A stretch of DNA of 64,000 nt from Haliclona indistincta. Lineage: Eukaryota; Porifera; Demospongiae; Haplosclerida; Chalinidae. The position numbers were made by a program, and so were the translations under genes. The stretch is from positions 13,390,040-13,454,039 of the forward strand of contig OZ024783.1 of the NCBI GenBank assembly GCA_964017065.1. Reading direction: 5' to 3'. The notes beneath the pieces are model-generated. The model worked only from the letters and a program-made list of their open reading frames with translations, was not told the origin of the DNA and searched no databases. Every line of letters begins with the position of its first letter. The stretch's first letter is position 1. Shown one piece after another: positions 12,582 to 33,403 of the stretch.

Positions 12582-12981
12582 CGTCACACCTTGGGCGGGG
12601 CTCAAACCACGCCCAACTTAATTTGGCGCGAAAACTAAAAATGCCCTCATCGATGGTGTAGCACGCAGCTCAAGCCCCTGCTGTTGAATAATTCAAAGAT
12701 TCATGATAAAATATAGTTTAATAAACAATTTCAAGCAACTAGCTCATCGTGTGAGACCACCTGGAGTAGTTAGTGACTGAGTGTACATAATCCAACCATC
12801 ACGTGTTGATAACATGCTTCACAAGTTGGTATGTTGCGGATAAAATGCAATCACAACACTTCATTGATATTTTAGTGTTGTTATAATTATTATTTCGAAA
12901 TGCACAACCTCATATTAAATTCGTCAGACTTCAAGACTTGTGTGTGCTCCTGACTGTATTAACCGAGTGCTGTAGATAGTA
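12582..12981. promoter_or_regulatory. Divergent intergenic region, NEK10 / family A copy 0
   Basis: About 400 bases separate the start codon of NEK10 (minus strand) from the first family A frame (plus strand). A GC-richer patch directly upstream of the NEK10 start (ttgggcggggctcaaaccac, 12591-12610) contains GGGCGGGG, a GC-box-like motif. The rest is AT-rich. Promoter function is inferred from position. Confidence 0.35.
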
Positions 12982-13663
12982 ATGGCTAGGCTGCATTGCT
13001 CATTGATGCTTATCATTCTCATATCAGCTTCTACTGATAGCCGTTTCATTACTGCACATGATTTTGAGGCAGAAAGAGGAGTTTACTTCGGTCAGTGCAA
13101 GCAAATGATACGAAGCGAAGCTTCCAATGGTATGACTGTTCTTATCAGATTAGGAGATGAACTGCACCATACAATGGAAATTGGATCAAGCTGTCTTATT
13201 GGTGTCGGAAATGTTCGATACAGCACTGATGGTCCACTGCCTGACACTGTCAACATCAGTCTTGCTGAAAATTACTTTAACACCACATCACAAAAGGAGG
13301 ACCTGTTGGTCAACACCTGCAGGCAGCTCCAATCAGGCAGCTATGATCTTGAACTGCTGGTCAGTGAGGATGACCTTGGAGTAAAACAACTTTAAATTAA
13401 TAAATTATACCTATGACAGAGATCCCGGTGACATTGAATCTATTTCCACAGAAACTACTGTACCGACAGCAGACGCTGCTGTACCGACAGCTGGTGATTC
13501 ACTTCCACCATATGAAATAGCTGCTATCGTAACACCAATTGCTGCTCTTATTGTTGGTATTCTATTTACCGGTATCGGCATTTATAAAAAATGTAGAAAG
13601 AAAAACCTTGGAGCCAACATGGGGTCCGGCATTACATTCAACAAAAACATGGGGCCTGTTTAA
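12982..13663 (+). pseudogene. Family A membrane protein, copy 0 (broken)
   Basis: It starts with a signal-peptide-like segment (MARLHCSLMLIILISASTDS) and continues with the family A ectodomain (LIRLGDELHHTMEIG, STDGPLPDTVNISL). Compared with the intact copies it lacks about 25 residues after the NYFNTT site. A small deletion after DDLGV then shifts the frame, and a stop follows at 13395. In another frame from about 13422 the missing C-terminal part is still readable: a Thr/Ala-rich stalk, a hydrophobic segment (IAAIVTPIAALIVGILFTGI) and a basic tail ending at 13663. An intron bridging the gap (GTAAAA to CAG) gives the wrong phase. The first ectodomain Cys of the family is replaced by Tyr. It is probably not functional. 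Confidence 0.7.
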
Positions 13664-14058
13664 TCAACATAAATAATAAAGACAAGAAACAGCTTATTGA
13701 CTGAATAAATTTAGAAGTAGATCTGTGCAGTAACATATCTTTGGAAACTATAGTTGTCTATCTGTGATGTGAATTGTGTACTGCCCAATTTGCCTGTTGC
13801 ATTAATAACTGAGTTAATAACCACCTTGTATTCTTGTATTGTTGTCAGTTGGCCTGTTCATCAACAGTTGATGTTAATGAACATTTCCTGGGCTGATATA
13901 ACAGATTATAATAATATTATACAATACATTGGAAGTGCATACAATACAACATTCTTACATATAGTAACGGTCTTATGACTACATAAACCATAATATTTAC
14001 ATTGTTGAGACTGGATTGTATAGACAGTGGATTCTTTCTAGCAGAGTGGTGTGAACTG
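13664..14058 (+). repeat. Upstream block repeated before each family A copy
   Basis: The phrase gttgatgttaatgaacattt and the sequence after it up to the start codon recur before copy 2 (24610-24830) and in fragments before copy 4 (32205-32235 and 32915-33030). It marks the left edge of the duplicated unit and probably contains the family A promoter. No gene is seen in it. Confidence 0.55.
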
Positions 14059-14079
14059 ATGGTGTATAGGCCTGTGCAG

Positions 14080-14796
14080 ATGACTTGGTACCATTCATTG
14101 GTTATCATCATATTTGTATCAGCAACTGTTGGTCGTTTCATTCATACCCATGATTTTGAGGCTGAAAGAGGAACCTGCCTCGGTCACTGTGAGCAGATGA
14201 CACGAACTGCAGCATCCAATGGTCTGACTGTCCTTATCAGATTAGGAGATGAGCTTCACCATACAATGGAAATCAAATCTAACTGTTCAGTCAGTGTTGG
14301 AAATGTCCAATACAGCACTGATGGTCCATTGCCTGACACAGTCAATATCAGTCTTGCTGACACTGAAGTTGGTTACTTTAACACTACATCACGAAAGGGA
14401 GGAGGTGACCTGTGGAATGTCTTCAAAGATTCTGGACCTGTTGGTAAACTTCTGCAGCTCCAATCAGGCACCTATGATCTTGTACTATTTCTCAGTGTGG
14501 ATGACCTTGGAGTTGAAATAGATAAAACTACTTTAGATTTCAACTGTGTTGGGAATCCTGGTCAAATTGAATCTATTGATCCTACCACCACAACAGATAC
14601 TACAGTGACAACAGCTGGACCACTTTCAACCGATGAAATAATTACTATTGTAGGAGTAGCTGCTGCAGTTCTAGGTGCTATGGGTACTATTGGAGGTGTT
14701 GTCATTGCTGCTATCACAGTTTATACGAAGTGCATAAAAACAAACCAATCATCTAGACTTCGAGATCACCAGGAATTCGCCATGTTTCCGCGATGA
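14080..14796 (+). CDS. Family A type I membrane protein, copy 1 (intact)
   Basis: This is a single-exon gene of 238 residues if the internal ATG at 14080 is used; that start puts a hydrophobic signal peptide (MTWYHSLVIIIFVSATVG) at the very N-terminus. An ATG at 14059 would add seven residues. The ectodomain spans about residues 19-175 with four Cys (the pair CLGHC, NCSVS, FNC) and N-glycosylation sites NCS, NIS and NTT. A Thr-rich stalk (TTTTDTTVTT) follows, then a Gly/Ala-rich membrane segment with GxxxG-type spacing (VLGAMGTIGGVVIAAI), and a short basic tail ending FAMFPR. I do not recognise the fold or function. It sits 90 bp upstream of a C1D exon 1 on the same strand, an arrangement repeated in copies 2 and 3. 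Confidence 0.8.
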   Translation: MTWYHSLVIIIFVSATVGRFIHTHDFEAERGTCLGHCEQMTRTAASNGLTVLIRLGDELHHTMEIKSNCSVSVGNVQYSTDGPLPDTVNISLADTEVGYFNTTSRKGGGDLWNVFKDSGPVGKLLQLQSGTYDLVLFLSVDDLGVEIDKTTLDFNCVGNPGQIESIDPTTTTDTTVTTAGPLSTDEIITIVGVAAAVLGAMGTIGGVVIAAITVYTKCIKTNQSSRLRDHQEFAMFPR

Positions 14797-14830
14797 ATTT
14801 TGATTATTGTTTGCACATTTGCAATTTGCT

Positions 14831-14867
14831 CACGTGACTGCACAAAATAGCGGCGCACGTACACGTG
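14831..14867 (+). promoter_or_regulatory. Paired CACGTG boxes upstream of C1D copy 1
   Basis: Two CACGTG palindromes (14831-14836 and 14862-14867) lie between the family A stop codon and the C1D start codon. The first is within CACGTGACTG, which is kept at the same place in copies 2 and 3. CACGTG is the core of E-boxes bound by bHLH-Zip factors of the MYC/USF type; use as such here is inferred. Confidence 0.5.
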
Positions 14868-17159
14868 CACGCTCGTGAACATAATTATGGCGAATGATGA
14901 TGACAATGTTCCCGAGGAAATAGAACAACAGTGCATTGATCTTCACCATGCTATAGCAGCCGTGGATACGGTCATGAAGCCTCTCTTAACAACCAACCGT
15001 GCCGCACTGGGAGAAACGGTTAGCAAGCAATTTGTTCTAGGTATGGTCATAAAATATACCCCGCCTAGTTTGTGTGATGAAGTGCTATAGTGAATTTCAC
15101 GAGGATTTTCATCACTGTTATTAATTTCTAGTACTACAGCCTTCAGCATGTACAACAACTGCAAAGACTGTTGAGTAGCGCCTCCAGGTCTCCAAATCTC
15201 CATGCTAACAATCAGAACAAATAATATTTTAACACTTGAGTTCTACAACTGCATGAGATCTTGATCATCTCAAATCAGACCTTGATTGTTGATAAATAAT
15301 TTTCAGTGCCTGATTAATGTTTCTATGTACATGCGTGTAGTCTGTACACCTCTTCCACTAAGCTACGGATGATGTATATATCGTTACTTTGGTCAACTTT
15401 CTCTGACTATTTAATGTCCTTTGGGCAGAGCAACAAGTACATTCTGCATTTTGTGAAATAATTATGACTAAGGCTACGTTTACACGTAGACGATCAGTCC
15501 AAAAACGGGGAAATGTATAGTGCTTCCAGTCTAAACATTCCAATTTACCACATTTTACCTACATGAAATGTTTTTGCTCATAAAAACTCAACTATGGCTG
15601 TCACAGTTATATGATTTGGTGAGAGAGTTGATACATCCATCTAGAGTATGTATGTATAGTTAGGAACAGATGCCATCATTACCAGAAATAAAGGACATCA
15701 CACGGAATTACGTTTATGCAGAGAACACGATTTACTTGTAATGTAACACAATTAATATAACGGGTTGCTAATGACAACCGCTCCGTTACGTGAAGGTCAC
15801 CTTGGATCATAGTTCACTGTGTGTCTTCTTGCACAGTTTCTACTGGTCCCAGTAGCGTCTGTGGTACTGAAAAAGACTCCTATTGGTGCGCCTTGAACGT
15901 CTGTTTCCTTCGCTCTGAACCACAAAGCCTTGTCGCCGTTCGCTAGCATGGTGCAGGTAGGCAACTTCACAGCTCTACAACGCTTGCAGTAGACGTCCAC
16001 TGTTTCAACACGGTTGTGTATAGCTATGCTAAGAAGCTCAAGCTTATGTATTACCTGTAACAATGTTCTTTTCAGAACAGAAAGTAAGCAGCGCGACGAA
16101 ATCAGAGCTCATAGAGAATGGCGGTCACGGAGTGACTTCTGGCTCCCTCCTGAGCCTTTGCTACACTAGAATTGCCAAGTACTAGCTTCTAGACAGTCTA
16201 AGGATAGTCTGAGATACTAGCGCTACAGTTTAAACTGAATAGACCATGCTCAAACTGTACTAAACGCAACTGCTGTACTTCGTTTCTTCCCGGGCAAAAC
16301 TTGTTTCTTACCTAACTTCACCTCAAAAGTGGAACCTACTTTTTTCTTTGGATTTCAATTTTGAACAAACCATTCAAATCTTCAGACCCTGTTCTATTAG
16401 ACCTGGGGTCGACCAACTCAAAATCGAGTTTAGTTTTTTAGTTACAGTCGCTCAAAAATCGATAAAAATCATATTTTGACATCAGCTAATACATTAGCAA
16501 TTGGGCGATAGTCGCGACTTTGAAGTGTGTTTTGGAACGGACTTTTTTCAACTCTACTGCAACATTTTTAGCTCAATCGATAGCTAATAGGCTGAAGTTT
16601 GCTATCCTGGGTCGACCAAGTGAAAATCTAGTTTGTGGAAGTCAGGACGCCGAGTAGAAGTTCATCTTCCAATGAACACAATACATTAACTAAAGTGAAT
16701 ATACGGACCTAAGATTTGATAGTATATGGAAATTGTAACAGGATGTCGTTATTAGCTGGCAACGTATTTCATCTCGAAGATATCAGCAGTTCAGTGGCAG
16801 TTGTAGGAAACACCAATTATCTTTATTTTTAGACCATAAAAACTGCTATATTATTAGTTAAGAAAAAGACTTGGCAAACAGTTGAGTAACTAGTTCATCT
16901 ATCATATACTGTAAAGTGGGTGCTTGATGTTCATGCAAACTACAGTACGGTCCTAAACAAGGCCAAAATTACACAAAAATCTACAGGTGAGAAAGTTTTT
17001 AGACTCAACAACGCGCAACTTCGAGAGTTAAGAAAAATGCGCTTGCAAGCAGGTAGCCATATGCCTTTACCAACCTCAGCGTTTCAATCGTGACAGTAGC
17101 TTACACTGTACTCGAATACGGCGACCTGATAGTAGCAGCACTCGCCGCTTCTGGTCGTC

Positions 17160-17296
17160 TTTGCTATATCTTATGACGTAGACAATGATGTACGTCAAAT
17201 CATAAATGCAATATACGGATACATTATCCGTATATATCCGTACATTGTCTCTATGACTTGACGTACGTCATTGTCTACGTCATAAGATATAGCAAA
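17160..17296. repeat. Palindrome inside the 6.1-kb element
   Basis: The left arm starts ttgctatatcttatgacgta and the right arm ends with its complement at 17296. The arms are about 42 bp and nearly perfect, around a loop that contains a smaller hairpin (acggatacattatccgta). It could form a cruciform. No gene is linked to it. Confidence 0.75.
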
Positions 17297-17565
17297 TATG
17301 GCATGTGTTCCTAACTATACACACATACTCTAGATGGATGTATCAACTCTCTCACCAAGGCGGCGTTTACACTGAAACGCTTTCCAGGAAACGGAAACAT
17401 TCTTTACGTTTTCACGGGGCGTTTTTACGCGTCTACACCAATCCAGTGCAGCTCAAAAATGATGCAATAGGTAAGGGGAGTGTTCATACACCTGTTATTA
17501 GGCACGTGATAATTGCGTGACTTATAGATAGTGATCACGACACATGCAGCGTTACCGTCTTACCG

Positions 17566-18667
17566 ATGCCTCCCAAGAAGAAGAGCAGCCCCAAGAAGAA
17601 GAACAGTGAGAAGAACAAGACCAAGAAGGAGTATATATGGACTGACGATGAAGCACAGTTGCTGCTCGAGGTGGCACACGACTACAAACTCGAGCATCTT
17701 TCTGAGGGCACAGACTGGGAGTCTGTAAAGACTAAATATGCTGACATACTAGAATTGTTCCGCAAAGAGCTACCAGAAGATGCGGAGCAAGCCAGGTGCC
17801 TCAGTAAAGACTACCCCCACAAGCTTGATGAGCTATCTAAAGAGGTTTTAACATCTAAGATAAAGGCTATTCGAATTAAATTTCGTGAGGTACGCCCTAT
17901 CGCTTGCTAACATTATTTTGTATTAAATCATGTGTTTTGTATAGGCTGTTGACTCGGGAAGGCAGAGTGGTCACGGTAGGGTTGTGTACCTATACTATGA
18001 ACTCTGCATGTGAGAAACTTTGGGGGGGACGGATCAAATCGCAATGGGCATGGAAACGGAGGAGGTAAATGATCAACAGGCATGCAGTGAACAATCAGCA
18101 GATGGCGAATGATCAGCAGGCTGGTGATAGAGAGAAAGTGAGCAGTAATTCTAGTGCAGAAGAGCAATCATCCGACAACACTAGCAGCCAGTGTTCAAGT
18201 AGAGAATCGTCTATTTCATCTGATGATTCATCTAGCCGCAAACGACGAGACAAGCTTAATGAAACTTTGTCAACTTATAAGACCAAGAGAATGAAGAAGA
18301 GACTGTCCAGTGATGTCCAACTAATAGAACTTATACCGAGAAAGAACTTGAGCTCAAGAAACAGATGGCTGATAGATTTGAAGAAATGAGCAAGGACCAT
18401 AGAGAGACAGTTGCACAGCTTACCAACAATCTCGAAACTTAAAGTGACACAATGAGCAGTGCGTTCGCATTGCTACAGCAAACTCTTACACAAAGATCAA
18501 GCCCCATGGTTTCTCCCTACTACCAACAATATGCGTATGCTCCCCCACCATCACCTGGCATGCATGGTCCTTCAAACTATCATCATGCTTCACCTCGGCC
18601 ACCTCCAGTTCATGGTACTACTCAATGTGATTTGGAAGACTATGATGACTACTCACAGCAGTGTTAG
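17566..18667 (+). pseudogene. Harbinger Myb-like DNA-binding partner gene
   Basis: Exon 1 (17566-17888) encodes a Lys-rich start (MPPKKKSSPKKK) and a trihelix/Myb-like segment: WTDDEAQLLLEVAHDYK, then WESVKTKYADILELF and KAIRIKFREV. A GT...TAG intron (17889-17944) joins it to AVDSGRQSGHGRVVYLYYEL. A frame break near 18010 (a few extra bases before EKLWGG) follows, then MGMETEEVND. Further right are Ser-rich and Lys-rich stretches (SSDDSSSRKRRDK at about 18215). In Harbinger elements this protein is thought to help the transposase bind DNA and enter the nucleus. The break or breaks make an intact product unlikely. Confidence 0.7.
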
Positions 18668-18753
18668 TGTAACTGATTTGTTGACAAAATTGTTTCATGC
18701 AATGTATAATCACATGTAATAATCATGGTCAGTATAATTATGTGACATAATCA

Positions 18754-20031
18754 TTATGGATCAAAGTATTTAGTAAGAACCCGTCTGACACGTTTTCCTT
18801 CCACCTCATTGCTTGGTCTAGGTGTGCCTTGGGTAGAAAGCTGTGATCCTTGATCTACTTGTATTGCAGCTCTTACTTGATCATCTGAAATAGATTCCTT
18901 GTTGAGTTCACAAAAATTGTGGAGAATGAAACAAGCATAAATAACGCTAGGCAAATCAAACAAGTTAATGTCCATCTCTCTTCGTAAGGGAGAAAAACGA
19001 GCTTTAAGACGCCAAATGCGCATTCGATGACGTTCCTGGCGCTACAAAGGTTATACCCGAAGTATTGCTCTTGCGCAGTAGATCCACCATTAGCGTACTC
19101 CTTCATGAGGTAAGGAAGTAAAGGATATGCCGAATCACCAAGTATCACAACAGGAATAGGATCTTCACCACTGACAACACTCTTCAAACATCTGGGTATT
19201 GCACCACTTCTTAATTTCTCGTTTAATGTGGAATTGATGAACATCCTGGCGTCGTCGTGGACACTGCCTGGCCATTTCACCACAACGTCCATAAAGTAAC
19301 AGATATAATCACAACATGCCTGAACATCCAATGAAAACCGTCCCTTATGATTAATGAAATAAGTGGCATTATCACTGGGCTGCTTAATATAAATATGGGT
19401 TCCATCCACTGCTCCCAAACACTGTGGGAATTGCCAATGATCAAAGAATTTATCTGTCTTTTCCTTCACTTCTTCTTCAGTAGTTGGTAGACGAAGGAAA
19501 AGAGGGCCCATGTGTTCACATATAGCACAGCAAACTCTCCTCAATACAATAGAAACTGTAGAGCGTGACAACCCAAAAGCATTAGCAGTTTTTCTCATTC
19601 TACCTTCGTCAGCCAGATGACAGTGTCAGAGCTACCTGTCTTTCAACTTCAACTAGAGCTCGTATTCTGGTTGTCTGACGTTCAACATGAGGCCTCAGTG
19701 TGTCACACAATAAAAAGAAAGTGGCTCTTGACATAAAATTTTCTTTCCACTCTCTTCTGGAGGCTCATCATTATCGATGAAGCTCTTCCACCACGACTGC
19801 GTCCTACCTGGCTTGATCGTACTGCATGTTTGCACGTTCCTGCCGGTATATTCTTGGTCTTCTCATGACAAGTTGGCTGGATGAACTTACAAATTCCATG
19901 AATACTTGACGTTCCCTAGCATAGGACAAGTCCGTAAGAAGAAGAATAAATACGTTAACCTGATAAACGACGAGTAAATTTGAAATGAAGAACACTAGGA
20001 AAGCTGCCAATTCGTCCTCCATTTTTGCCAA
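18754..20031 (-). pseudogene. HARBI1-type DDE transposase, frameshifted
   Basis: The longest frame (18873-19598) begins MRKTANAFGLSRSTVS, a helix-turn-helix-like start. It then carries the DDE motifs of the DDE_4 superfamily: GAVDGTHI (first Asp), VHDDARMF, VILGDSAYPLLPYL (second Asp) and NVIECAFGVLK (Glu). After GVLK the frame shifts by one base and continues as ARFSPLRREM and CFILHNFCELN to a stop at 18754. Upstream pieces in other frames (MSRATFFLLCDTLRPHVE near 19740; MAKMEDELAAFLVFF from 20031) show at least two more breaks. The enzyme would cut and join the element ends; this copy is inactive unless the breaks are assembly errors. Confidence 0.8.
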
Positions 20032-20457
20032 CCAAAATCACGTGACAGTTTGCTGATTCACGAGTATCGTTGCCGTTTTCAAGTGTTTACACTGGTCCAA
20101 ACAAGCGTTTTTGCTGCCTCCGTTTTCTAAGTTTCCACTTTGGTGTTCGGATTTAAAGTTCGCGTTTTCATCGCGCGTTTTCACCGTTTTAGTGTAAACG
20201 GGAGGCAAAAACTGAAAGAAAAGTTTGCGTTTTCACGCAGAAACGTTTTAGTGTAAACGCCGCCCAAATCATATAACTGTGACAGCTATAGATAGTTTCG
20301 TGGCAAATGTGTGATGGAATGTTCGCGGCTAATATCGACCCAAAACTGTCGTCAGAATTATGACGTCGCGTGACGCGCATCAATTGGCTGGAGGGATAGA
20401 TTTGTACAGCGCGGTACAGCGTTTAGTGGAAAACGTGCGTTTCTTCAGTGCTGACCA

Positions 20458-21105
20458 ACTTCCATTGGTTAGCCTTATAAAGAGTCGAATATAGTCAACA
20501 ATTGCTGCGTTTTTGGATGCTCTAGTTCAGCAAAGAGGCTGTATGGTAAGTTTTTCAGCTTTCCTTTTCACAATGGCAAGCCAAGGTAGAACTGTGGATA
20601 AATGCTGTACGTCGAGCAGTGCGGAAACCTCGACGTTACTCAAGAATCTGCAGCTTAAACTTTATAGAAATTAATTTTTTAACTTTGAAATACAATTTTG
20701 CAGGCTAATAGACTGGGTAAGCCCCAACATGATTCTAGTCACCCTGACTATGTACCAAGTGTGTTTCCTACTGCTTACAAGAAGGCTATACACAAGGAAC
20801 AGGGTCTGATTTAGATAGATATAATAGACTGTTTAATAGAAGGATGATACGATGTGACCAAGCAGCTAAATCACTCTAATACAGTTCAATCATCTATGGT
20901 GCAATGAAGAGTAAGAAGACGCAAAGAACAGCAGGGACCAGTGGTTGACCAGCAGATTGACGAAGAGCAGGATGAACCAGTAGTAGTTAAGCAGCAGATT
21001 GACGAAGAGCAAAATGAAACAGTAGTAGTTGAGCAGCAGATTGACGAAGAGCAAGATGAACCAACCAAAACACAGTCTATTGGCCTTCAAAATTGTATTT
21101 TATAG
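20458..21105 (+). pseudogene. THAP zinc-finger domain pseudogene
   Basis: From about 20488 the frame reads VNNCCVFGCSSSAKRLYG then FFSFPFHNG, the N-terminal half of a THAP domain (C-x2-4-C). After a one-base shift it continues with LWINAVRRAVRKPRRYSRIC, the central tryptophan and the third Cys; the expected His of the C-x2-H pair is Asn (ICSLNF). After a possible intron ending cag at 20703, HPDYVPSVFPTAYKKA matches the end of THAP domains. A later frame (20935-21105) has three copies of QQIDEEQDEP-like acidic repeats. THAP domains bind DNA and occur in P-element-type transposases and host factors. With a shift and a lost ligand this one is not functional. Confidence 0.7.
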
Positions 21106-21184
21106 TTGAACATTACCTTCATTAAAGTTTAAGCTGCATATTCTTGAGCAACGTCGAGGTTTCCACACTGCTCGACGTACAGAC
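20600..21184. repeat. Inverted repeat made of THAP coding sequence
   Basis: The stretch starting ctgtacgtcgagcagtgcgg (20601 on) is repeated in inverse orientation ending at 21183, over about 70 bp with few mismatches. The left arm is the THAP exon that encodes the tryptophan/Cys part; the right arm is an antisense duplicate of it. It brackets the last THAP exon and the acidic repeats. Confidence 0.65.
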
Positions 21185-22058
21185 TACATCGTTTTTGCTG
21201 TTTACACGGCTCCGTTTTGGCTGTTTTTCCAGCGGAAGCAAATGAAATGTGGTCGTGCCGTTTTCGTGCGAGCATGCTAGCACTCACTCATACGCATGAA
21301 CCAGCAAAGGACACACTATTTACTTTGATAGTTGTCGTTTCAGGGCTCGCGCTAGTATTCTTCTCTGTGAGTATGAAGGCTGAGATGTGCTCTTATAAAA
21401 AGTGTGTATCCGTATTTGGTGTTTACACGAGCTTTTTTCCTGCCTCCGTTTTCCAAGTCTCCACTTAAGTCTCCATTTTTCAGGCGAGTTTTCATCATAT
21501 GCGTGTAAACGAGAGGCATAAACGGAGACAAATGTCTGCGTTTTTGCCCGAAATCGTCTTCATGTAAACGGGGCCTAATTCCTGTTTTGTGTTTTTCCAT
21601 AAATTGGTCGGGTCAAAATTTTGTCGATCAAGATTCCATAACAGCTGGCAGAGACGAGAGGTCAATGATGACGGGATAGTTGTGGCCAGTTACCGGACCC
21701 TATACTTATAGCTTAGCAGAGCTGAAATATTGGGACAAAACTAGTTTGTGTGTGACTGTATAATATTATACTGGGCATGAATGCGGACACATGCTTTGTC
21801 TTTGGTTGCTAGCTGTTTAGTTCTGTATACCAACAATCTCATGCCTGCTTCAGCATTTCTGGCTGTTTGCATGTTTCATTCCATGCAGATGAGCTCAATG
21901 GATGAAGCCTCTTTTTCTATTCTGCTCTGTTACACTATGAATTCATTGTTTTGGGGTAAGTGAGTCTATGTACGTAGCTCCCTCACATGATTTATAGTAC
22001 ACTATCAGTGCCTCATGTGAGCTAGCTTGTTCCTTGATGGAGTCTGTGAGATTACAGA

Positions 22059-22166
22059 CCTTTGCAAGTTGCTTGTCAGCAGAGATTGTGAAATGGGCGG
22101 TGGTCTCTAACAATAATAATGTCAACACCCATTTCACAATTTCTGATGTCAAGCAACTTGCAAAGG
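22059..22166. repeat. Conserved foldback in C1D intron 3 (copy 1)
   Basis: CCTTTGCAAGTTGCTTG near 22058 pairs with CAAGCAACTTGCAAAGG ending at 22166, and GAAATGGG with CCCATTTC further in. The same foldback lies in C1D copy 2 (about 27155-27280) and, shorter, in copy 3 (about 31423-31517). It was therefore present before the duplications and is likely an old miniature transposon. Confidence 0.65.
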
Positions 22167-22194
22167 AAACACGATTTTCGAAACAAGCAACACG

Positions 22195-22891: not shown

Positions 22892-23069
22892 TTTTATACA
22901 TAGATTAGTCGATGGTGCATTCAATAAAACCTATCTTAGCTATATAGCGCTTTTTCTCTCCACACTATGATTTAGTATTATTTTTATGAATATTTAATTA
23001 GGCAAACTGTTAACCATCCCCTTAAACAGGACAGAATTCAAAAGTACATGAAAAGAGCTGCCTTCATCA

Positions 23070-23380
23070 TAGCCTTGCCTCCAGTCCACACCCTTCAGTT
23101 AGTGGCCTGGTAATGACTGTCTGCGCATTCGTTGATTTTCCCAGGAAAACCTGGGAAAACATCGTTGCTATCGTATACGCTACGTATCGCGCCTGTCTGC
23201 TCTTCTTTTGACTTAATACCTGCCTTTCCAACGAGCTGAGACGGCGTACTGTATAGCGCTTACTAATCGATGATATCTGAATTCCCGACATTTTCCCAGG
23301 CTTTTATGGGAAAATCAACGCATGCGCAGACAGTCATTACCTGGCCACTAACTGGAGGGTGTGGACTGGAGGCGAGGCTA
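23070..23380. mobile_element. Long-TIR miniature element in C1D-1 exon 4, 9-bp TSD
   Basis: The ends TAGCCTTGCCTCCAGTCCAC and, inverted, TAGCCTCGCCTCCAGTCCAC begin inverted repeats of about 90 bp. CCTTCATCA (23061-23069) and CCATCATCA (23381-23389) flank it, a 9-bp target duplication with one mismatch. The intact C1D copy has a single uninterrupted site. Long inverted repeats with a 9-bp duplication fit Mutator-like (MULE) elements; hAT with 8 bp is an alternative. Confidence 0.75.
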
Positions 23381-23489
23381 CCATCATCAGTGAGAAGCAG
23401 AAAGGAGGTATAAGATACACGTAAAGTCTGTTCCAATTAACTTATTGTTTTCCAAATTTCATTCCAATAGTTAAAAGACTGAACACTTA

Positions 23490-24096
23490 CAGTGTTCCAC
23501 ACGAAGAGAGTGAATTAATGTTAGGAATGTATGACGTCACGTCAATAGTAACAATACATTTTACCTAACAAAATGGCCGCCAAAAACCTGCTCTCTCGCA
23601 GAGTGAAGTCGCGCTTGTCGCTGTATATGCTTCTAGAGACGCTAGGTGAGATCTACTTTCATGATTAATGTTTTAGCATTGCAGTCATGAAGTCTTAGAG
23701 CTTAACTACCAGTAGAACTGGAATTCCTGTCCCTAACGTTAGGCTCATCGTGAAGGGTCACCTTTTGCTCTCTGCCGCCGATGTAGCACTGATTGGGACC
23801 AATCCTGCTGCCAACAGATAAGCATCCGAGGTGAAAGCTTCAATGCAGCGATAACAGAGCTTAACTACCGGTAGTCCCTGAGATTCGCTCCCTAACGTGT
23901 TTTTCCAATTGGCTGCCTGTCTTTCAAATTTCTGTCACGTGAGTGTCATCTGACAAGAAGCCATATAAAGCATAAGATTCAGTAAGGATAGAGGATCAAA
24001 ATGATATATAAATCATAACTCTAGGACAAATAACTCTAGAGAAATCAAGCAAAATGTCAAACACACAATTATTCCCTCTCTTCGTGTGGAACACTG
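23490..24096. mobile_element. Tc1/mariner-like miniature element in C1D-1 exon 5
   Basis: It begins CAGTGTTCCACACGAAGAGA and ends with the complement of the same sequence. TA flanks both sides (23488-23489 and 24097-24098). Terminal CAGT plus a TA duplication is the Tc1/mariner signature. A 607-bp body without a transposase frame contains an internal imperfect repeat (agagcttaactaccggtagt and a near copy about 160 bp before it). Confidence 0.75.
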
Positions 24097-24160
24097 TATG
24101 CTGCTAAGAGATTTGTCAGAAATTTGCTGTATATATGAAGACAAGCCGTCATCTTCAAAG

Positions 24161-24850
24161 GCTTTCAGCCGTAAACGTCGTAGCTGTCACTATTTGTTTG
24201 TTTAAAAATTATTCAGTTTGTTTTCTTGTAATTGTGATGTGTAGTCCCCACATTGGCATTGTCAGTACCCTCATAAAGTACTCACACAATTTCGACTATG
24301 ATGGGAATGCTGGTAAAATGATGCTACTGTTTTTACCACTACAGGAGGATTCGTAACAACAGTTGCTAGACTATTAGTATGACATAATTATTGTACAAAT
24401 AATATATTTAAAAAATAATTACATGTATAATTAAAACTGACCCATTTATGCTTATCCTGGGAATGTATGCAGAAATACAATGATGTACATGTCACATGAT
24501 GGCTTGTACAGTAGAGGAATGTTAGTAGTCACAGTATAATCATAGTTAAAGGATAGTGTGGAATGTAATGTAAACATGTACTTGCACATAAAATATGCAA
24601 CTATAGTTGTCAGACAGCCTGTTCATCAACAGTTGATGGAAATGAACATTTCCTGGGCTGATATAACAGGTATAATATACAGTATACAATAATACAGGAG
24701 TGCATACAATACAACGTTCATACATAAATGGGTCTTATGACTAGGTAAACCATAATAATTATTAATGTCGAAAGCCGTGACTGGATTGTATAGACAGTTG
24801 ATTTCTTTCTAGCAGAGTGGTGTGAACTGATGGTGTATAGGCCTGTACAG
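24161..24850. other. Spacer between units 1 and 2
   Basis: It holds the decayed 3' flank of C1D copy 1 and, from about 24600, the repeated block that precedes each family A copy. Otherwise AT-rich, with no gene seen. Confidence 0.45.
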
Positions 24851-25570
24851 ATGTCTTGGTATCATTCATTGGTTATCATCATCATATTTGTATCAGCTTC
24901 TACTGATAGCCGTTTCATTACTACCCATGATTTTGAGGCTGAAAGAGGAGTCTGCCTCGGTCACTGTAAGCAGATGACACAAACTGCAGCTTCCAATGGT
25001 CTGACTGTCCTTATCAGATTAGGAGATGAGCTTCACCATACAATGGAAATCAAATCTAACTGTTCAGTCAGTGTTGGAAACGTTCGATACAGCACTGATG
25101 GTCCATTGCCTGACACAGTCAATATCAGTCTTGCTGACACAGAAGTTGGTTACTTTAACACCACATCACGAAAGAGAGAAGGTGACTTGTGGAATGTCTT
25201 CAAAGATTCCGGACCTGTTGGTCAACATCTGCAGCTCCAATCAGGCAGCTATGTTCTTGTACTGTTTCTCAGTGTGGATGACCTTGGAGTCGAAATTGAT
25301 AAAACAACTTTAATCTTCAACTGTGATGGGAATCCTGGTGAAATTGAATCTATTAATCCTACCACCACAGAGACTACAGTGACAACAGATGGATCCCTTT
25401 CAGTTGGTGCTATAGTTGGTATTGTAGCAGCAGTTGCTGCACTTCTAGGTGCTATGGGTGCTATTGGAGGTGTTGTCTTTGCTGCTATCACAATTTATAC
25501 GAAGTGCATAAAAACAAACCAACCATCTAGACTTCGGGATCACCAGGAATTCGCCATGTTTCCGCGATGA
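24851..25570 (+). CDS. Family A type I membrane protein, copy 2 (intact)
   Basis: This is a single exon, 239 residues from the ATG that starts the signal peptide (MSWYHSLVIIIIFVSAS). It is the closest relative of copy 1: same four Cys, same glycosylation sites, same cytoplasmic tail (KCIKTNQPSRLRDHQEF). Differences cluster in the second half of the ectodomain (QHLQLQSGSYVLVLFLS) and in the stalk. The membrane segment is again Gly/Ala-rich (AAVAALLGAMGAIGGVVFAA). The next start codon, of C1D copy 2, is 89 bp downstream. Function unknown; cell-surface location is inferred from signal peptide and membrane segment. Confidence 0.8.
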   Translation: MSWYHSLVIIIIFVSASTDSRFITTHDFEAERGVCLGHCKQMTQTAASNGLTVLIRLGDELHHTMEIKSNCSVSVGNVRYSTDGPLPDTVNISLADTEVGYFNTTSRKREGDLWNVFKDSGPVGQHLQLQSGSYVLVLFLSVDDLGVEIDKTTLIFNCDGNPGEIESINPTTTETTVTTDGSLSVGAIVGIVAAVAALLGAMGAIGGVVFAAITIYTKCIKTNQPSRLRDHQEFAMFPR

Positions 25571-25604
25571 ATTTTGATTATTGTTTGCACATTTGCACTT
25601 TACT

Positions 25605-25635
25605 CACGTGACTGCACAAAATAGCGGCGCACGTG
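25605..25635 (+). promoter_or_regulatory. Paired CACGTG boxes upstream of C1D copy 2
   Basis: CACGTG occurs at 25605-25610 (in CACGTGACTG) and 25630-25635. Position and first-box context match copies 1 and 3. Probably the C1D promoter; this is inferred. Confidence 0.5.
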
Positions 25636-25659
25636 CACGTCGCGCTCGTGAACATAATT

Positions 25660-27828
25660 ATGGCGAATGATGATGACAATGTTCCTGAGGAAATAGAACA
25701 ACAGTGCGTTGATCTTCATCATGCTATAGCAGCCGTGGATACGGTCATGAAGCCTCTCCTAACAACCAACCGTGCCGCACTGGGAGAAACGGTTCAGCAA
25801 GCAATGTGTTCTAGGTGTGGTCATAAAATATCAGTACCGGCGGGGCGCTAGCGGAAATTAATGGGAGGGGACGAGGCTAGCGGGGCGCCCGAGGGCGCCT
25901 AGTTTGTGTGGAGGCAGTGCTAAAGCGAATTTCACGAGGATTTTCATCACTGTTATTTCTATTAAGTCTAGTACTATACAGCCTTCAGTATGTACAGCAA
26001 CTGCATAGACTGTTCAGTAGCGCCTCCAGGTCTTACACTAACAATCGGAACAAACATTTTAACCTGCCTTGCGTTCTGCAACCGAGATCTTGATCATCTC
26101 AATCAGACCTTGATTGTTGATAATGAATTTTCAGTGCCTGATTAATGTTTCGGTGTACATGCATGTAGTCTATAAACCTCTTCCGCTAAGTTACGGATGG
26201 TGTATGTATCGCTACTTTGGTCAACTTTCTCTGACTATTTAATATCCTTTGGGCAGAGCAACAAATACATTCTGCATTTTGTAAAATATGACTAATATAA
26301 CTCCTGCTTTACCATAAGTTGGTCGGCTCAAAATTTTGTCGATCAAGATTCCATAACAGCCGCAGAGACGAGAGATCGATGAATATTTGTCGCCAGTTAC
26401 TAGACCCTATTTATAGCTTAGCGGAGGTGAAATATTGGGACAAAACTAGTTTTGTGTGTGACTGTATAATAATATCAATCTCCTGGGCAAGAATGTGGAT
26501 ACACGCTTTGTCTCTGTATATGCTAGCTGTATAGTTCCGTATACCAACAAGCTCAAGCCTGCTCCAGCATTTCTGACTGTTTGTTTCACTGTACTTGTCT
26601 CCATGCAGATGAGCCCAATGGATGAAGCCTCTCTTTCTCTTCTGCTTTGTTACACTATGAATTCATTGTTTTGGGGTAAGTGAGTCAATGTAGCTCCCTC
26701 ACATTATGATAATATTCTGTTAGTGTACCTGTCCACACAAGGAGTGAATCCTAAAGAACACCACATACGAAGAGAACTAGTGAGTACTGTAATATTCATG
26801 TATTGAAAATTTTACATTTTTCGTAGGTCCTTCAATGTCCGATTAATATTTTTCACTATCAATTTTATTAATAAATTTGTACATGTCATCAAAATACACC
26901 AAAAGTTCATATAAACTTTGTACGTGTGCAAGTATGTTCATGTGATATAAGTCTACTTGTGGTGTGTGGGAACCCTTGATGGTCGCTAGAGTTTTGTCCC
27001 TTCCCATACCGAAGATAGTGATTTTTAGTCAATTATTACTTCCGCCCTCCCTTCTAAATTATGTGTATTTTTCTTGGTCTTTTATTGACATGACTTTTAT
27101 AGTACACTGTCAGTGCCTCCTGTGAGCTAGCTTGTTCCTTGACGGAGTCTGTGAGATTACAGACCTTTGCAAGTTGCTGGACAGCAGAGATTGGGAAATG
27201 GGTGGTGGTCTCTAACAATACATTGCTAATAATGCCAACGGACATTTCACAATTTCTGTTGTCAAGCAACTTGCAAAGGTCTGTATGGCTGAGGTACATG
27301 CTCCAGCGTAGTCAGACCAGACAAACTTTTTTGTGTTCTTTATCACATGACGAGAATCTTTTTCATTGCAATTGAGTATTTTCTTCACTTTCTCGCTGCT
27401 TTCGTCCTTAGACAGGACAGAATTCAAAAGTACATGAAAAGAGCCGCCATCATGCATCAATGAGAAGCAGAAAGGAGGTATGAGATACATGTGTAGTCTG
27501 TTCGAACTTATTGTTTTTCAAATTTCATTCCCATAGTTAAAAGACTTGACACTGATGCTGCTAAGAGATTTGTCAGAAATGCTCTGTATGAAGATAAGCC
27601 GTCATCTTCAAAGGTTGTACCACCGTAAACAGAAATTTTACCACACTATTTGTTTGTCCAAAGTTTAAAATTTAATGTAGTGTTTTTGTGTGTAAGTACT
27701 CTCATAAGCTTCTAGTCACTTTTGATGTTGTTAAAATTTGGTTCCACAGTCACACAGATTTTGTGCTGTGAGCTACAATAGTTTCCTAGGCTCATAATTA
27801 TTCCTTTCTTTTCCTCATGCAGAGCTAG
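25660..27828 (+). pseudogene. C1D: C1D copy 2, frameshifted in exon 4
   Basis: Exons: 25660-25791, 26609-26675, 26724-26779, 27416-27477, 27537-27613, 27823-27828. All junction phases equal those of the intact copy. Exon 4 has four extra bases (ATCATGCATCAATGAG where copy 3 has ATCATCAGTGAG), which shifts the frame and brings a TGA after RAAIMHQ. The product would lose the C-terminal third, including the RFVRNALYEDK part shared with human C1D. A four-base insertion is what a minimal excision footprint or slippage could leave. The other exons are well preserved, so loss looks recent. Confidence 0.8.
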
Positions 27829-27839
27829 CTGACAATTAA

Positions 27840-28417
27840 GGGACTACACGGCGAACTATAGAAACGGCTCGATTTGCGTGCTGTTTTTTCTGGCTCACCA
27901 TCTAGTACTTCACAGCGACTTTACCAACTGCTGGGCGGTCCTAGGGTGGAGCTAGAGGGCCGAGGGACCCAAATGTTTTACGACATAGTTTTTCTTTAAT
28001 TTAAAGGTAGCAACCAGGGTGGGTGGGAGGGGGGAGGGCGGGCAAGCGGAGCGGGTGAACTTTGCCTACCTCTGGCGCCACAAATGACCTTGCTGCGTTC
28101 TTAGCTGACCTCTGTAGCTCAATTCTTGTGCAAACCACGAAACTAATTAAATATTCGCGGCCTTGTGACTGACAGACTGAACACTTTACGCAAAAACGCA
28201 TGCATACGTTTGCTCACCACGAGCCATTCAGTTCACAAATCCATTTTGGTGGGCGTGGCTTGTCCGCTCATTGAATAAAATTTTTACTCTTTCTACAGTG
28301 TTTGCTCCGCCCACAAGCAGATCTGTGAGTTTCTTTGATGATAACTGTCTTTGACCACGCTTTGTTTGCCCGAAGAAACTGAAATTTTCGTCATTCTGAT
28401 GTTCGACATGTAGTCCC
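27840..28417. mobile_element. piggyBac-like miniature element, TTAA target
   Basis: TTAA flanks both ends (27836-27839 and 28418-28421). The terminal repeats are GGGACTACACGGCGAAC and, inverted, GGGACTACATGTCGAAC. The matching place after C1D copy 3 reads gacagttaagcagg, an empty single TTAA site. The 578-bp body has no transposase frame and includes a G-rich tract near 28020. Confidence 0.8.
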
Positions 28418-28794
28418 TTAAGCAGATTCTACAGAAAATTGAAATTTATAATGATTGAAAGCTATTATGAATAATTTATTATGCTATTATGAAATAGCCA
28501 AAAGGCAAACATTTTTTTATTTGTACACAAAATGACGTTGAGTATTTTAAACAAATTAAAGTGACATCAGCCATGTTGTGTTGATAACATTCAACATATT
28601 GGTTGAGTGTTTTCTTTTCACTATCATTTCTGCGTGCTTCATAGGGGGCTAGTATTCTGTGTGTTTGTCATAACAATAAGGAATCACAGCTCTTTTAATT
28701 ATTGACTGTTACGTTACTGCATGGACTTATAAGAAATTGGGCTAAGCTAGTTGTGCATGTAAAGTCTGCTAGCTGTATACTTCAGTCCGTTCGA
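28418..28794. other. Spacer between units 2 and 3
   Basis: An AT-rich spacer that carries the 5' flank of family A copy 3. No gene recognised. Confidence 0.4.
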
Positions 28795-29472
28795 ATGGCT
28801 TGGTTGCATCACTCCCTTGCGATTATCATTCTCATATCAGCTTCTACTGATAGCCGTTTCATTACTACGCATGATTTTGAGGCAGAAAGAGGAGTTTGCT
28901 TTGGTCAGTGCAAGCAAATGATACGAAGTGAAGCATCCGATGGTATGACTTTTCTTATCAGATTGGGAGACGAACTGCACCATACAATGGTAATCGAATC
29001 TAATTGTTCAATTGGAGTCGGAAATGTACGATACAGCACTGATGGTCCATTACCTGACACAGTCAATATCAGTCTTGCTGAGACAGAGGTTGGCTACTTC
29101 AACACCATATCACGAAAAGGAGAAGGTTACTTATGGAATGTCTTCAAAGATTCCGGACCAGTTGGTCAGCATCTGATGCTCCAATCAGGCAGTTATAATC
29201 TTGTACTATCTCTCAGTGTGGATGACCTTGGAGTTGAAATAGATAAAACAACTTTAAATTTTAACTGTGATGAGAATCCTGGTCAAATTGAATTCAATGT
29301 TAATTCTGCTGCAACGCTAGCTACTGTGCCAACTGGTTCATTGCTTTCAGTCGGTGAAATACTTGGAATCGTAACTGCAGTGGCTACTGTTATAGGCACC
29401 ATTGGAGGTATCGTTATTGCTGCTTTAACAGTTTTTGTAAGATACAAAAGACATAATCTATATGCTATATGA
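28795..29472 (+). CDS. Family A type I membrane protein, copy 3 (intact)
   Basis: This is a single exon of 225 residues from MAWLHHSLAIIILISAS, which makes the signal peptide N-terminal; a longer frame from 28702 adds an unlikely hydrophilic leader. The ectodomain keeps four Cys (CFGQC, NCSIG, FNC) and the block STDGPLPDTVNISLAE. The stalk is shorter and richer in Ala/Thr. The membrane segment is IVTAVATVIGTIGGIVIAAL. The cytoplasmic tail (RYKRHNLYAI) is unrelated to that of copies 1 and 2, so ectodomains are conserved while tails differ. C1D copy 3 begins 273 bp downstream. Confidence 0.8.
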   Translation: MAWLHHSLAIIILISASTDSRFITTHDFEAERGVCFGQCKQMIRSEASDGMTFLIRLGDELHHTMVIESNCSIGVGNVRYSTDGPLPDTVNISLAETEVGYFNTISRKGEGYLWNVFKDSGPVGQHLMLQSGSYNLVLSLSVDDLGVEIDKTTLNFNCDENPGQIEFNVNSAATLATVPTGSLLSVGEILGIVTAVATVIGTIGGIVIAALTVFVRYKRHNLYAI

Positions 29473-29709
29473 CATAATAAAAACCTCAGTGTGCTTATAA
29501 ATACTGTGGCAGTAGACCTCATCCATAGCACAGTTTTCAACTAATGCAATGTGCACACACAAATAAATTGCAACATGCAACTTTTAATTTTTCAATTTAT
29601 AACTAGTTCCAAAAACTGCAATTTCAGAAACTTTCGTATACCGGTAATACGCTGTCGCATGTCATGTCTCGTCCCCAGACCACTCCCTTTCCGCTATATA
29701 TATTATGCG

Positions 29710-29730
29710 CACGTGACTGCTGGCCACGTG
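29710..29730 (+). promoter_or_regulatory. Paired CACGTG boxes upstream of C1D copy 3
   Basis: CACGTG occurs at 29710-29715 (CACGTGACTG again) and 29725-29730, 16 bp before the C1D start codon. It is the same pair seen before copies 1 and 2 although the sequence between gene A and C1D differs here. Confidence 0.5.
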
Positions 29731-29745
29731 AATGTGCTTGCCAAC

Positions 29746-31997
29746 ATGGCGAGTGACGATGACAATGTTCCCGAGGAAATAGAACAACAGTGCGTTGATC
29801 TTCATCATGCTGTAGCAGCCGTGGATACGGTCATGAAGCCTCTTCTAACAACCAACCGTGCTGCACTGGGAGAAACGGTTAGCAAGCAAGTTGTTCTAGG
29901 TGTGGTCATATTTAAAGCCCCACCTTCTTTGTATGAGACAGCTAGGCTGATCTTATGTTATTCTACTAAGTCTAGTACCACACCATCAGCATGATACAAT
30001 GCCTTCAGTGCCCAGTTACTTTGGTCAATTTACCTGCTATACATGGTTTCATTGAGGGGTAGGGATGGGCACTCGCCTCCTTGATGAACTAGGCCGTGTT
30101 GCCCCTTGAGTTACAAAAAAAATTAATACCTGTATTATTATAACTCTTAAGTTTTTATCGACCCGCACTTTGCCCTCTCGCAAAAATTTCTATATAAAAC
30201 CATGCGGAGGTCAATGGCTGTTTAATATTCTGGCAGAGCAATAAGTACATTCGTGAAATATGACGTCAGAGCATCTTAATTCCTGCTTTCCTGAGAGTTG
30301 ATCCAATTAATTTTAATTAAAGAAGGCTCAAAATTTAGATTCCACAATAGCTAGCAGTCAGTGATGACAGGGAATTTTCCCAGACTTTACCTTATAGCTT
30401 AAGGGAAGTGAAATATTGGGACAATACTAGTTTTTGTGTGACCATAATTATAATAATAATAATAAAAATTTATCAATCTCCTGGGCATGAATGTTTTGTT
30501 TCTATATGCTAGCTGTCAGCTCCATATACAAGCTCCGTAAACCAACAAGCTCATGCCTGCTCTATGCATTTCTGGCTGTTTGTTTCACTGTACTTGTCTC
30601 CGTGCAGATGACCCCAATGGATGAAGCATCTCTTTCTCTTCTTCTCTGTTATACTATGAATTCATTGTTTTGGGGTGAGTGAGTCAATGTAGCTTCCTCA
30701 CAATAATTATGATAATAATTATTCTAGTGTATCTGTCCACACAAGGAGTGAATCCTAAAGAACACCACATACGAAGAGAACTAGTGAGTACTGTAATATT
30801 CATGTATTGAAAAATCACCTTTTTCGTGGGTCCCTTCGATGTGTGATTAATTTTTTGCACTATCAAATAGTTTTATTTTTGTATGCCATTAAAATACACC
30901 TAAACTTTGTACGTGTGGAAATATGTTCGTGTGATATAAGTCCATATGTTGTGTGGGAACCCTTGATTGTCGCTAGAGTTTGTTCCCTGTTCCCATAGTG
31001 TTTTTTTTTTCGTTATACCTTCAGCCCTCCCATCTAAATTATGTGTATCTTGCTTGGTCTGTTATACCGCGTTCACACTACGCGCTAGAATGGAACTGAA
31101 CCGGGCCGGCCCGGTTGCAAATCTCTGACAGTATGAACGCAACTGAACTGAGCTACAACTGAACTGAACTGCACCATTGCGGCACACCAACCATAGGTGG
31201 GCCGCTTCCAGCACGGTTCGGTTGAGTCAGAACTTTGATCATAAAGTGTGGCACGGTTCGGTTGAGTCAGAACTTTGATCATAAAGTGTGGCACGGTTCA
31301 GTTCGGCCCGGTTTCAACGTGCAGTGTGAACGGGGTATTAGTGACATGACTATTATAGTACACTATCAGTGCCTCCTGTGAGCTAGCTAGATACTATATT
31401 CTGGAGTCTGTGAGATTACAGACCTTTGCTTGTCAGCAGAGATTGTGAAATGGGCGGTGGTCTTATAATTGCGACGCCCATTTCACAATTTCTGTTGTCG
31501 AGCAACTTGCATAGGTCTGTATGGCTGAGGTGCATGCTCCAGCGTAGTCAGACCTCTTTATCACATGACGAGAATCTGTTACATTGCAATGAGTATATTC
31601 TTTCACTTTCTCGCTGCTTTCATCCTTGAACAGGACAGAATTCAAAAGTACATGAAAAGAGCTGCCATCATCAGTGAGAAGCAGAAAGGAGGTATGAGAT
31701 ACATGTGTAGTCTGTTCCAGCTTGTTGTTTTACTAATTTCATTCCCATAGTTAAAAGACTCAACACTGATGCTGCTAAGAGATTTGTCAGAAATGCTCTT
31801 TACGAAGATAAGCCGTCATCTTCAAAGGTTGTACCACCGTAAACATATAGAATTTTAAACAATTTAAAGTTTTAAATTTCATGTAGTGTTTTTGTGTGTA
31901 AGTACAAAATTCAGTTCAACTGTCACACAGATTTTGTCATGTTAGCTACAATAGTTTTCTAGGCTCATATTCGTTTCTTTTCCTCATGCAGAGCTAG
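29746..31997 (+). CDS. C1D: C1D, nuclear exosome cofactor (intact copy)
   Basis: Six exons with closing phases: 29746-29877, 30608-30674, 30728-30783, 31634-31691, 31751-31827, 31992-31997 (last codon plus stop). They give 131 residues; human C1D has 141. Exon 1 carries the first helices (EEIEQQCVDLHHAVAAVDTV), exons 2-3 the core [20 protein letters not shown], near-identical to human [22 protein letters not shown], exon 5 DAAKRFVRNALYEDK. C1D (Sas10/C1D family, yeast Rrp47/Lrp1) binds the exosome-linked nuclease EXOSC10/Rrp6 and structured RNA, working in pre-rRNA 3' processing in the nucleolus. It is the only one of three copies that can make a whole protein. Intron 3 holds a 273-bp transposon (31065-31337) and the shared foldback. 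Confidence 0.92.
31065..31337. mobile_element. PIF/Harbinger-type miniature element, TSD TTA
   Basis: The ends TACCGCGTTCACACTACGCG and, inverted, TACCCCGTTCACACTGCACG are flanked by TTA on both sides (31062-31064 and 31338-31340). C1D copy 2 has the uninterrupted site. Inside, a unit of about 43 bp (gcacggttcggttgagtcag...) is duplicated in tandem at about 31210-31295. Confidence 0.75.
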
Positions 31998-33048
31998 CTG
32001 ACAGTTAAGCAGGTTCTACAGAGACTGAATGCTGAAACTGGGCCGCGTCTCTGACCGCACAGTCACTTCCCAATTCCCTACTCTTTTGTTTGTTGTTTGA
32101 ATAAGAGCCATTGCATTGTAACAACACGTGCAGAACACGCGTTTTTATTAAGACACAAAGTATGCAATGATATTTGCAGTTAGCCTGTCCATCAACATGC
32201 AGTTGATGTAAATGAACATTTCCTGGAACAGGTATTGCATATGTTACGACCCGATTCACAACCTGACCCGTTTCGAAGCCGGCCGCCGGTTTCGAAGCCG
32301 GTTAACCCGATTTACAACCACATAACTCAGTTGACCCGGTTTAAAACCGAACGTTTCAATGCTTCAGGGTGCCCACCTGCATGCTAGATCGACGGAACCT
32401 ACGTAGGAGTGCTGTCGCGGTTATAGCTCACTGCAGTGCGGCGCAGCAAGACTAGAAAGTGTCCCGGAGGCGATTTAGAGCATCATGTGCTACTACCTTC
32501 ATCGACAGGAGCGTCGTTGTAAGTGGTTTAGCAGCACAACACAGCAAGCCTACCTGCTAAATTGACAGGAATGACGTTACGAGTGGTTCAGCAACGCAGC
32601 GCAGCAAGAAATGTTGTGTGCATGCAACAGTTGTTTTAACAATCAAACTCATAGGAACATGTCAGAGCTTCTTATTCAAACGTGACTCCTGTACATGTAC
32701 ATGGAAGCAAATTTAAATAATTGCGATGCAATGTATATGGACACTCAGAGTACACGTTCTGTTTAGTAGTCGAAGTCTATTACACGAGCGCACATAGCAT
32801 TATGCACACTTTGAATCTGGCGCGCAGCTAGCTAACCCGCTTCGAATTAAACCGGTCGACCGGCAGTGCAGTGCATGCAGTGCAGTGCATGCAGAGTGCA
32901 TGCAGTACACGTTCATACATAATTATATAGTAACGGGTCATATGACTAGGAACCAAAATATTATTGTTGAAAGCCGTGACTGGATTGTATAGACAGTGGA
33001 TTCTTTCTAGCAGAGTGGTGTGGACTGTTGGTGTATAGACCTGTGAAG
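31998..33048. repeat. Repetitive spacer after C1D copy 3
   Basis: From about 32160 the block that precedes family A copies begins, but it is split by an insert (about 32240-32890) rich in CCGGTTT/TTCGAAGCCGG motifs. The insert contains two to three imperfect copies of a roughly 60-bp unit (gtggtttagcagcacaacac / gtggttcagcaacgcagcgc) between 32400 and 32610, and a short gcagtgcatgcagtgcat run near 32870. No gene is seen. Confidence 0.5.
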
Positions 33049-33403
33049 ATGTCTTGGTATCATTCATTGGTTATCATCATATTTGTATCAGCTTCTACTG
33101 ATAGCCGTTTCATTCATACTCATGATTTTGAGGCTGAATTGAAGAGGAACCTGCCTCGGTCACTGTATGCAGATGACACGAACTGCAGCTTCCAATGGTC
33201 TGAGTGTTCTTATCAGATTAGGAGATGAACTTCACCATACAATGGAAATCAAATCTAACTGTTCAGTCAGTGTTGGAAATGTTCAATACAGCACTGATGG
33301 TCCATTTCCTGACACAGACTATATCAGTCTTGCTAACACAGAAGTTGAATTGGTTACTTTAATTCCTTTCGAAACAGAACATGGAGCATACAAATATCCT
33401 TGA
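33049..33403 (+). pseudogene. Family A membrane protein, copy 4 (broken)
   Basis: The signal peptide part (MSWYHSLVIIIFVSASTDS) and first ectodomain residues are readable. Five extra bases in the GAEA region then shift the frame to a stop at 33228. The second frame (from 33167) keeps LIRLGDELHHTMEIKSN and a changed STDGPFPDTDYISL, then stops at 33403. The last third, membrane segment and tail are absent; an unrelated repeat follows. No C1D exon follows, so this is the truncated right end of the array. Confidence 0.75.

Follow-up and report, generated by a model that had tools for sequence, protein, structure and literature searches.

Clusters of KIR, olfactory receptor and NLR genes consist of head-to-tail copies with pseudogenes, chimeric fusions and hitchhiking neighbours. 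The locus described here, from the sponge Haliclona indistincta, resembles them in all these respects and differs in that the head of its receptors is conserved while the tail drifts. Two other described families bear on it. Carbohydrate-binding modules of the CBM6, CBM35 and CBM36 type are the likeness for the receptor head, which is 9-19% identical to them among the structure matches listed; unlike these modules, the receptor is membrane-anchored and without a catalytic domain, and the single-domain members scanned miss the Pfam model. C1D/Rrp47 (PF04000) is the likeness for its neighbour, a 134-amino-acid protein encoded in five exons, which differs in being present as four copies, two intact, in tandem-duplicated blocks; to our knowledge, C1D is single-copy in most animals. 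We analysed a window of 64,000 nucleotides (positions 13,390,040-13,454,039 of contig C1, OZ024783.1) and searched the genome of 144 Mb on 46 contigs; coordinates are those of the window unless given in Mb or marked C1. The locus is probably a birth-and-death gene cluster, in which a kinase gene, genes for lectin-like type I receptors and, in some blocks, C1D were copied by unequal crossing-over. Loci of this type have been described before; what is new is the receptor family.

Comparison of the window with itself by BLAST (threshold E ≤ 1e-10) yielded alignments far beyond chance, bearing out the tandem units of the original prediction, which had been made from the sequence of this stretch. 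Repeat pieces within the array are ~71-95% identical, e.g. 13837-15057 vs 24602-25831 at 90.2%, and both 26411-27085 vs 30392-31065 and 27082-27840 vs 31338-32009 at 79.8%. The predicted counts also held within the window: five copies of the membrane gene, three with an intact open reading frame (ORF), and three C1D copies, one intact and two broken, each adjacent to a membrane gene (one each after the copies at 14059, 24830 and 28795). The elements of the array, and the C1D copy found beyond it, are as follows.

12982..13660, plus strand: membrane copy 1, pseudogene, beta by tree; ORF stops at 137 amino acids, tail in another frame
14059..14796, plus strand: membrane copy 2, gamma, intact, 245 amino acids
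14887-15018 (exon 1) and 21889-21955 (exon 2), plus strand: C1D unit 1, broken; exon 3 not found
15460..21589, no strand assigned: insertion of ~6.1 kb in intron 1 of C1D unit 1, a gap in the alignment to unit 4
18873-19598, minus strand: DDE_Tnp_4 ORF (E 1.3e-21) of a Harbinger-like element in that insertion
23020-23069, 23377-23487 and 24090-24176, plus strand: remnants of exons 4-5 of C1D unit 1, split by insertions
24830..25570, plus strand: membrane copy 3, gamma, intact, 246 amino acids; ectodomain 24908-25348
25660-25791, 26609-26675, 26724-26779, 27416-27477 and 27537-27627, plus strand: C1D unit 2, five exons, frameshifted
28795..29472, plus strand: membrane copy 4, delta, intact, 225 amino acids; groups with beta in the tree
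29746-29877, 30608-30674, 30728-30783, 31634-31691 and 31751-31841, plus strand: C1D unit 3, intact, 134 amino acids
33049..33362, plus strand: membrane copy 5, gamma, truncated at a breakpoint common with other blocks
C1:13592713-13594563, in a head-to-tail block ~170 kb beyond unit 3: C1D unit 4, intact, AG/GT splice sites

The array had been placed at 12.9-33.4 kb. It is there but does not end there, as the repeat continues on both sides within larger duplicated blocks; the earlier observation was thus right and undersold in extent, and its interpretation half right. Self-BLAST over a wider region, 13.28-13.48 Mb plus parts of 13.516-13.600 Mb (with gaps at 13.48-13.516, 13.53-13.564 and 13.571-13.580 Mb) showed the window array to be nested in a tandem segmental duplication of ~300 kb, whose blocks are head-to-tail, collinear and carry several genes each. 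Alignments between blocks range from ~73% to 99% identity, the long pieces being mostly 84-95% identical, and kinase-side homology is present in six blocks (13.28, 13.32-13.346, the window, 13.52, 13.565 and 13.58 Mb). All 21 genome matches of the membrane family fall within C1 13.29-13.59 Mb and were resolved into 15 copies, seven of them intact; none was found elsewhere in the genome, and two more distant relatives used as queries led to no further places (16 and 12 matches). A tree with strong support on seven of 12 inner branches divides the copies into subfamilies alpha (3), beta (4), delta (1) and gamma (7). The blocks at 13.29, 13.52 and 13.565 Mb contain alpha, beta and truncated gamma copies, some broken, and no C1D exon was found in them by protein search; membrane copy number therefore does not require C1D. 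The claim that the membrane gene alone drives the array is unsupported: the protein kinase, genes farther downstream and an ORF of 689 codons are duplicated in the blocks as well.

Traces of exchange between paralogues are visible within the window. Membrane copy 1 is an alpha/beta fusion pseudogene, in which an alpha-type upstream region is joined to a beta-type body: sliding identity to alpha is 91-98% up to 12,929, and starting at 13,030 the sequence follows beta at 79-95%, placing the switch near 12,930-13,030. C1D is paired with a gamma copy in units 1, 2 and 4 and with delta in unit 3, and the C1D copies differ from each other by a synonymous divergence (dS) of 0.10-0.17 vs 0.49-0.59 between delta and gamma; unequal exchange is the simplest cause of this swap beside similar C1D copies. 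One stretch of gamma copy 3 is 94-97% identical to beta and only 92-93% to its gamma sisters, which hints at gene conversion as well. Copy 5 loses its similarity to other gamma copies at a point that agrees to ~10 bp with the blocks at 13.29, 13.52 and 13.565 Mb, and copy 5 with its right flank is 88.6-91.4% identical to the truncated gamma and flank there; copy 5 thus predates the window array, having belonged to the block for longer. Between units 2 and 3, the stretch ~27835-28421 is 98.6-99.1% identical to two tandem copies on the opposite strand at C1 13.4687-13.4699 Mb, far closer than the units are to each other, and is therefore a recent insertion or transfer.

The membrane family had been called unknown. 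The predicted structure of the copy 3 ectodomain (24908-25348) is a beta jelly roll of the CBM6/35/36 type, and on this model the receptor is most likely lectin-like and would bind sugar. Trp121, FEAE (35-38) and Asp157 (copy 3 numbering) are nearly invariant in the family, the Asp being invariant in a second comparison. Hydropathy exceeds 1.6 near the C-terminus in all seven intact ORFs; the N-terminal stretch reaches 1.6 in one of the seven, though it is helical in the model. None of the Pfam matches of the membrane protein is convincing, including that of one member to ECSCR (E 5.3e-5), and a PDB sequence search with it gave nothing solid. Matches to Podoplanin and CD99L2 were rejected: they are confined to the Thr-rich and transmembrane part and lie under the cut-off in copy 3. 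The same jelly roll is seen in P0043, P0044 and P0045 (616-672 amino acids), together with a PL4 domain-III-like stretch under the cut-off, an architecture outside the receptor family. A literature search found no fitting paper, among the titles of the matches listed, on sponge CBM6 lectins or CBM6 membrane proteins in Porifera.

The receptor head is under constraint. Whole-gene ratios of nonsynonymous to synonymous divergence (dN/dS) are 0.46-0.71 in gamma pairs and 0.17 in the beta pair. We calculated the ratio of the corresponding proportions (pN/pS) by region for six of the 21 possible membrane pairs. In the head it is 0.17-0.40 in all six (p from 0.04 to 5e-10), and positive selection on the ectodomain, considered as a candidate, was rejected on these values. 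Five pairs have stalk ratios of 0.76-0.95, and the beta pair has 0. Transmembrane ratios range from 0 to undefined; they are > 1 or undefined in three gamma pairs, not significantly (p 0.13-0.31), and the only significant value is constraint in the gamma-delta pair (0.44, p 0.03). Tail ratios range from 0.52 to 4.6 or undefined, and those that are > 1 or undefined (two gamma pairs, p 0.10 and 0.33; gamma-delta, 1.09; the beta pair, p 1) include none that is significant, nor does any other tail value.

Several points weigh against this reading of the receptor and its cluster. A shared fold alone demonstrates no function, and sugar binding is here deduced from the fold only; Cry-toxin domains and a laminin domain also match the ectodomain. 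No Pfam CBM_6 match was obtained in the single-domain members scanned, a PF03422 search of this genome returned 0 CBM_6 genes, and P0031, with the precomputed annotation PF03422, scores 25.9 bits against a curated cut-off of 28.9. As the fold fits and the CBM_6 cut-off is not reached, we name the domain 'CBM6/35-like' and do not file it as Pfam CBM_6. The placing of Trp121, FEAE and Asp157 in the cleft or calcium site is presumptive. The full-length model has two low-confidence helices near the C-terminus (192-208 and 212-229), so that a single membrane pass is likely, not certain. The delta head is ~80-90% identical to gamma and 80-96% to beta, with flanks at background; gene conversion may keep the heads alike alongside selection and would, if present, affect the estimate of constraint. 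Finally, the order of events, C1D lost from three blocks vs gained in two, rests on an outgroup; homologous loci were searched in viral_contigs and genome_contigs, and none was confirmed there.

Four C1D copies were found in the genome, so that the one intact copy of the original count has an intact counterpart in unit 4. Outside the window and 13592713-13594561, a protein search found no C1D exons, the lone other match (C9, E 3.99) being at chance level. Unit 3 has AG acceptors and GT donors in its five exons and carries a Sas10/Utp3/C1D domain (PF04000, 53.4 bits vs a cut-off of 30, residues 18-94); its size and a 20-residue stretch would fit the C1D subfamily rather than Sas10/Utp3/neuroguidin. 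A PF04000 search of the genome returned one other Sas10-family locus, on C2, and missed C1D itself, probably because its exons are too short; PDB sequence searches gave no credible C1D relatives. Units 3 and 4 are identical at 132 of 134 residues and differ by two nonsynonymous and eight synonymous changes (dN 0.006, dS 0.096; Fisher p 1.3e-4). Unit 4 lies at the end of its block, and in the 5.4 kb past it nothing of ≥ 150 bp aligns with 13.28-13.48 Mb at E ≤ 1e-20. Intron 3 of unit 3 contains a dispersed repeat of ~200-300 bp (~31058-31349), with dozens of genome copies at ~93-98% identity.

The broken copies differ in their histories. Unit 2 has a 4-bp insertion in exon 4 (27416-27477), its frame ending at residue 100, past the PF04000 stretch, and an altered first donor (GTTCAG in place of GTTAGC). 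Its branch carries two nonsynonymous and seven synonymous changes (exons 1, 2, 3 and 5; 114 codons; Fisher p = 6e-4), and it was therefore constrained until recently. Over exons 1-2 (66 codons), unit 1 is separated from the other copies by 4-7 nonsynonymous and 3-8 synonymous changes, consistent with lost constraint; the insertion in its intron 1 also holds two small ORFs of the Harbinger-like element on the other strand (17566-18389, plus) and a 1.09-kb dispersed repeat. The claim that C1D was simply carried along and then lost thus holds only in part: two of the three window copies are broken, but unit 2 was constrained until recently and two near-identical intact copies remain. The original prediction took C1D for a normally single, essential gene; budding-yeast Rrp47 is not essential. 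In the nuclear exosome, the C1D product should assist Rrp6. According to passages of PMC4812661, the fission-yeast homologue Cti1 is essential and the Sas10/C1D domain suffices for Rrp47 function in vivo; on the latter statement, even the truncated product of unit 2 might in principle function, provided that its transcript is spliced. A literature search found no fitting paper on tandem C1D duplication in sponges.

We propose that the block was copied repeatedly head-to-tail, by unequal crossing-over between paralogues. Each receptor would start with an N-terminal signal sequence, followed by a single extracellular jelly roll of the CBM6/CBM35-like kind, a stalk rich in Thr, a membrane anchor and a short tail. 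At the cell surface, its head would bind a glycan that is conserved and of microbial or self origin. As the head is conserved while stalk and tail drift, this ligand is probably common to the copies, with dosage, expression or coupling setting them apart. C1D would be a physical neighbour of the receptor and no functional partner; at least one of its copies would have to survive, and two do. It is probably driven by its own compact promoter, as expected from a CACGTG box just 5' of its ATG in all four units.

That receptor and C1D instead form a co-transcribed, dicistronic functional pair is very unlikely. The distance from receptor stop to C1D ATG is 90, 89, 273 and 73 bp in units 1-4, and the three short intervals, with no AATAAA/ATTAAA between the genes, would suit such a pair; but unit 3, at 273 bp, has two of these signals, the CACGTG box fits a separate promoter, and only four of the 15 receptor copies precede a C1D. 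Selection for C1D dosage, with the receptor as passenger, would account for two intact copies that are nearly identical and for the recent constraint on unit 2, yet half of the C1D copies are broken and receptor genes persist in three blocks where no C1D was found, which makes it unlikely. An allorecognition or arms-race cluster would be expected to combine tandem type I membrane genes, pseudogenes and a chimera, as here, and possibly copy differences between assemblies; it is improbable given purifying, not diversifying, selection on the ectodomain between the paralogues tested. Literature searches found nothing on tandem-duplicated transmembrane allorecognition genes in sponges, including Amphimedon, and, among the matches listed, no fitting title on carbohydrate-binding module, transmembrane, lineage-specific expansion and Amphimedon queenslandica.

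Tandem arrays are where assemblies fail, and the original prediction had itself raised haplotypes of a single locus laid end to end against the array. P0004 (331 amino acids, on a 180,455-base contig) is gamma-like; its best match among the copies here, window copy 3, reaches 85% identity. As a genome query it gave 121 matches, the receptor part matching only in this cluster and the rest being a dispersed repeat that enters through its first 65 residues; since this repeat occurs here at up to 97% identity, P0004 comes from the same or a very near species, and cluster copies therefore probably vary between haplotypes or individuals (presence/absence or allelic). Such an artefact is nevertheless highly improbable: the units are divergent, each C1D has different insertions, and the membrane subfamilies differ. 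Moreover, four window copies and the 13.294-Mb copy have identical protein counterparts on contigs of ≤ 314,887 bases (not necessarily one contig), distinct from this 19.2-Mb contig. A birth-and-death cluster remains the probable explanation.

Further duplicated genes of the window flank the array.

8606..12478, minus strand: protein-kinase gene, left neighbour, with armadillo-like repeats and a Ser/Thr kinase domain
3153-5222, minus strand: 689-codon ORF, duplicated, with a 687-codon counterpart in the 13.58-Mb block
36026..38122, minus strand: large ORF on the right-hand side of the block, duplicated too; weak Roc-GTPase match under the cut-off

The kinase gene, presumably NEK10-like, matches Pkinase at E 1.3e-59 (exon pieces joined by eye) and ARM, under the cut-off, in 10417-11502; further copies lie at 13.289-13.293, 13.344-13.346, 13.520-13.524, 13.564 (part) and 13.588-13.591 Mb. 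The 689-codon ORF has no Pfam match. Farther to the right are a reverse-transcriptase fragment (48578-48955, minus strand; RVT_1 E 2.9e-12) and an integrase-like ORF (48011-48493, by eye).

A more far-reaching reading is, as a whole, unlikely: that the receptors form a family of membrane-anchored CBM6/35-type lectins not described before, which has relatives in other species, probably sponges, and is akin to a domain of at least one EukProt protein; that they are glycan-sensing receptors in which a constant sugar-binding head is combined with interchangeable stalks and tails via unequal exchange and conversion among tandem copies, the same ligand leading to different outputs; and that the linked C1D provides a measurable extra dose of exosome cofactor. 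For the family itself, the 'unknown membrane family' becomes a testable candidate lectin receptor with a contrast in selection between head and tail. The locus also illustrates how a housekeeping gene, here C1D, can be duplicated by virtue of its position as a neighbour, with two intact copies and a third that fell out of frame only recently.
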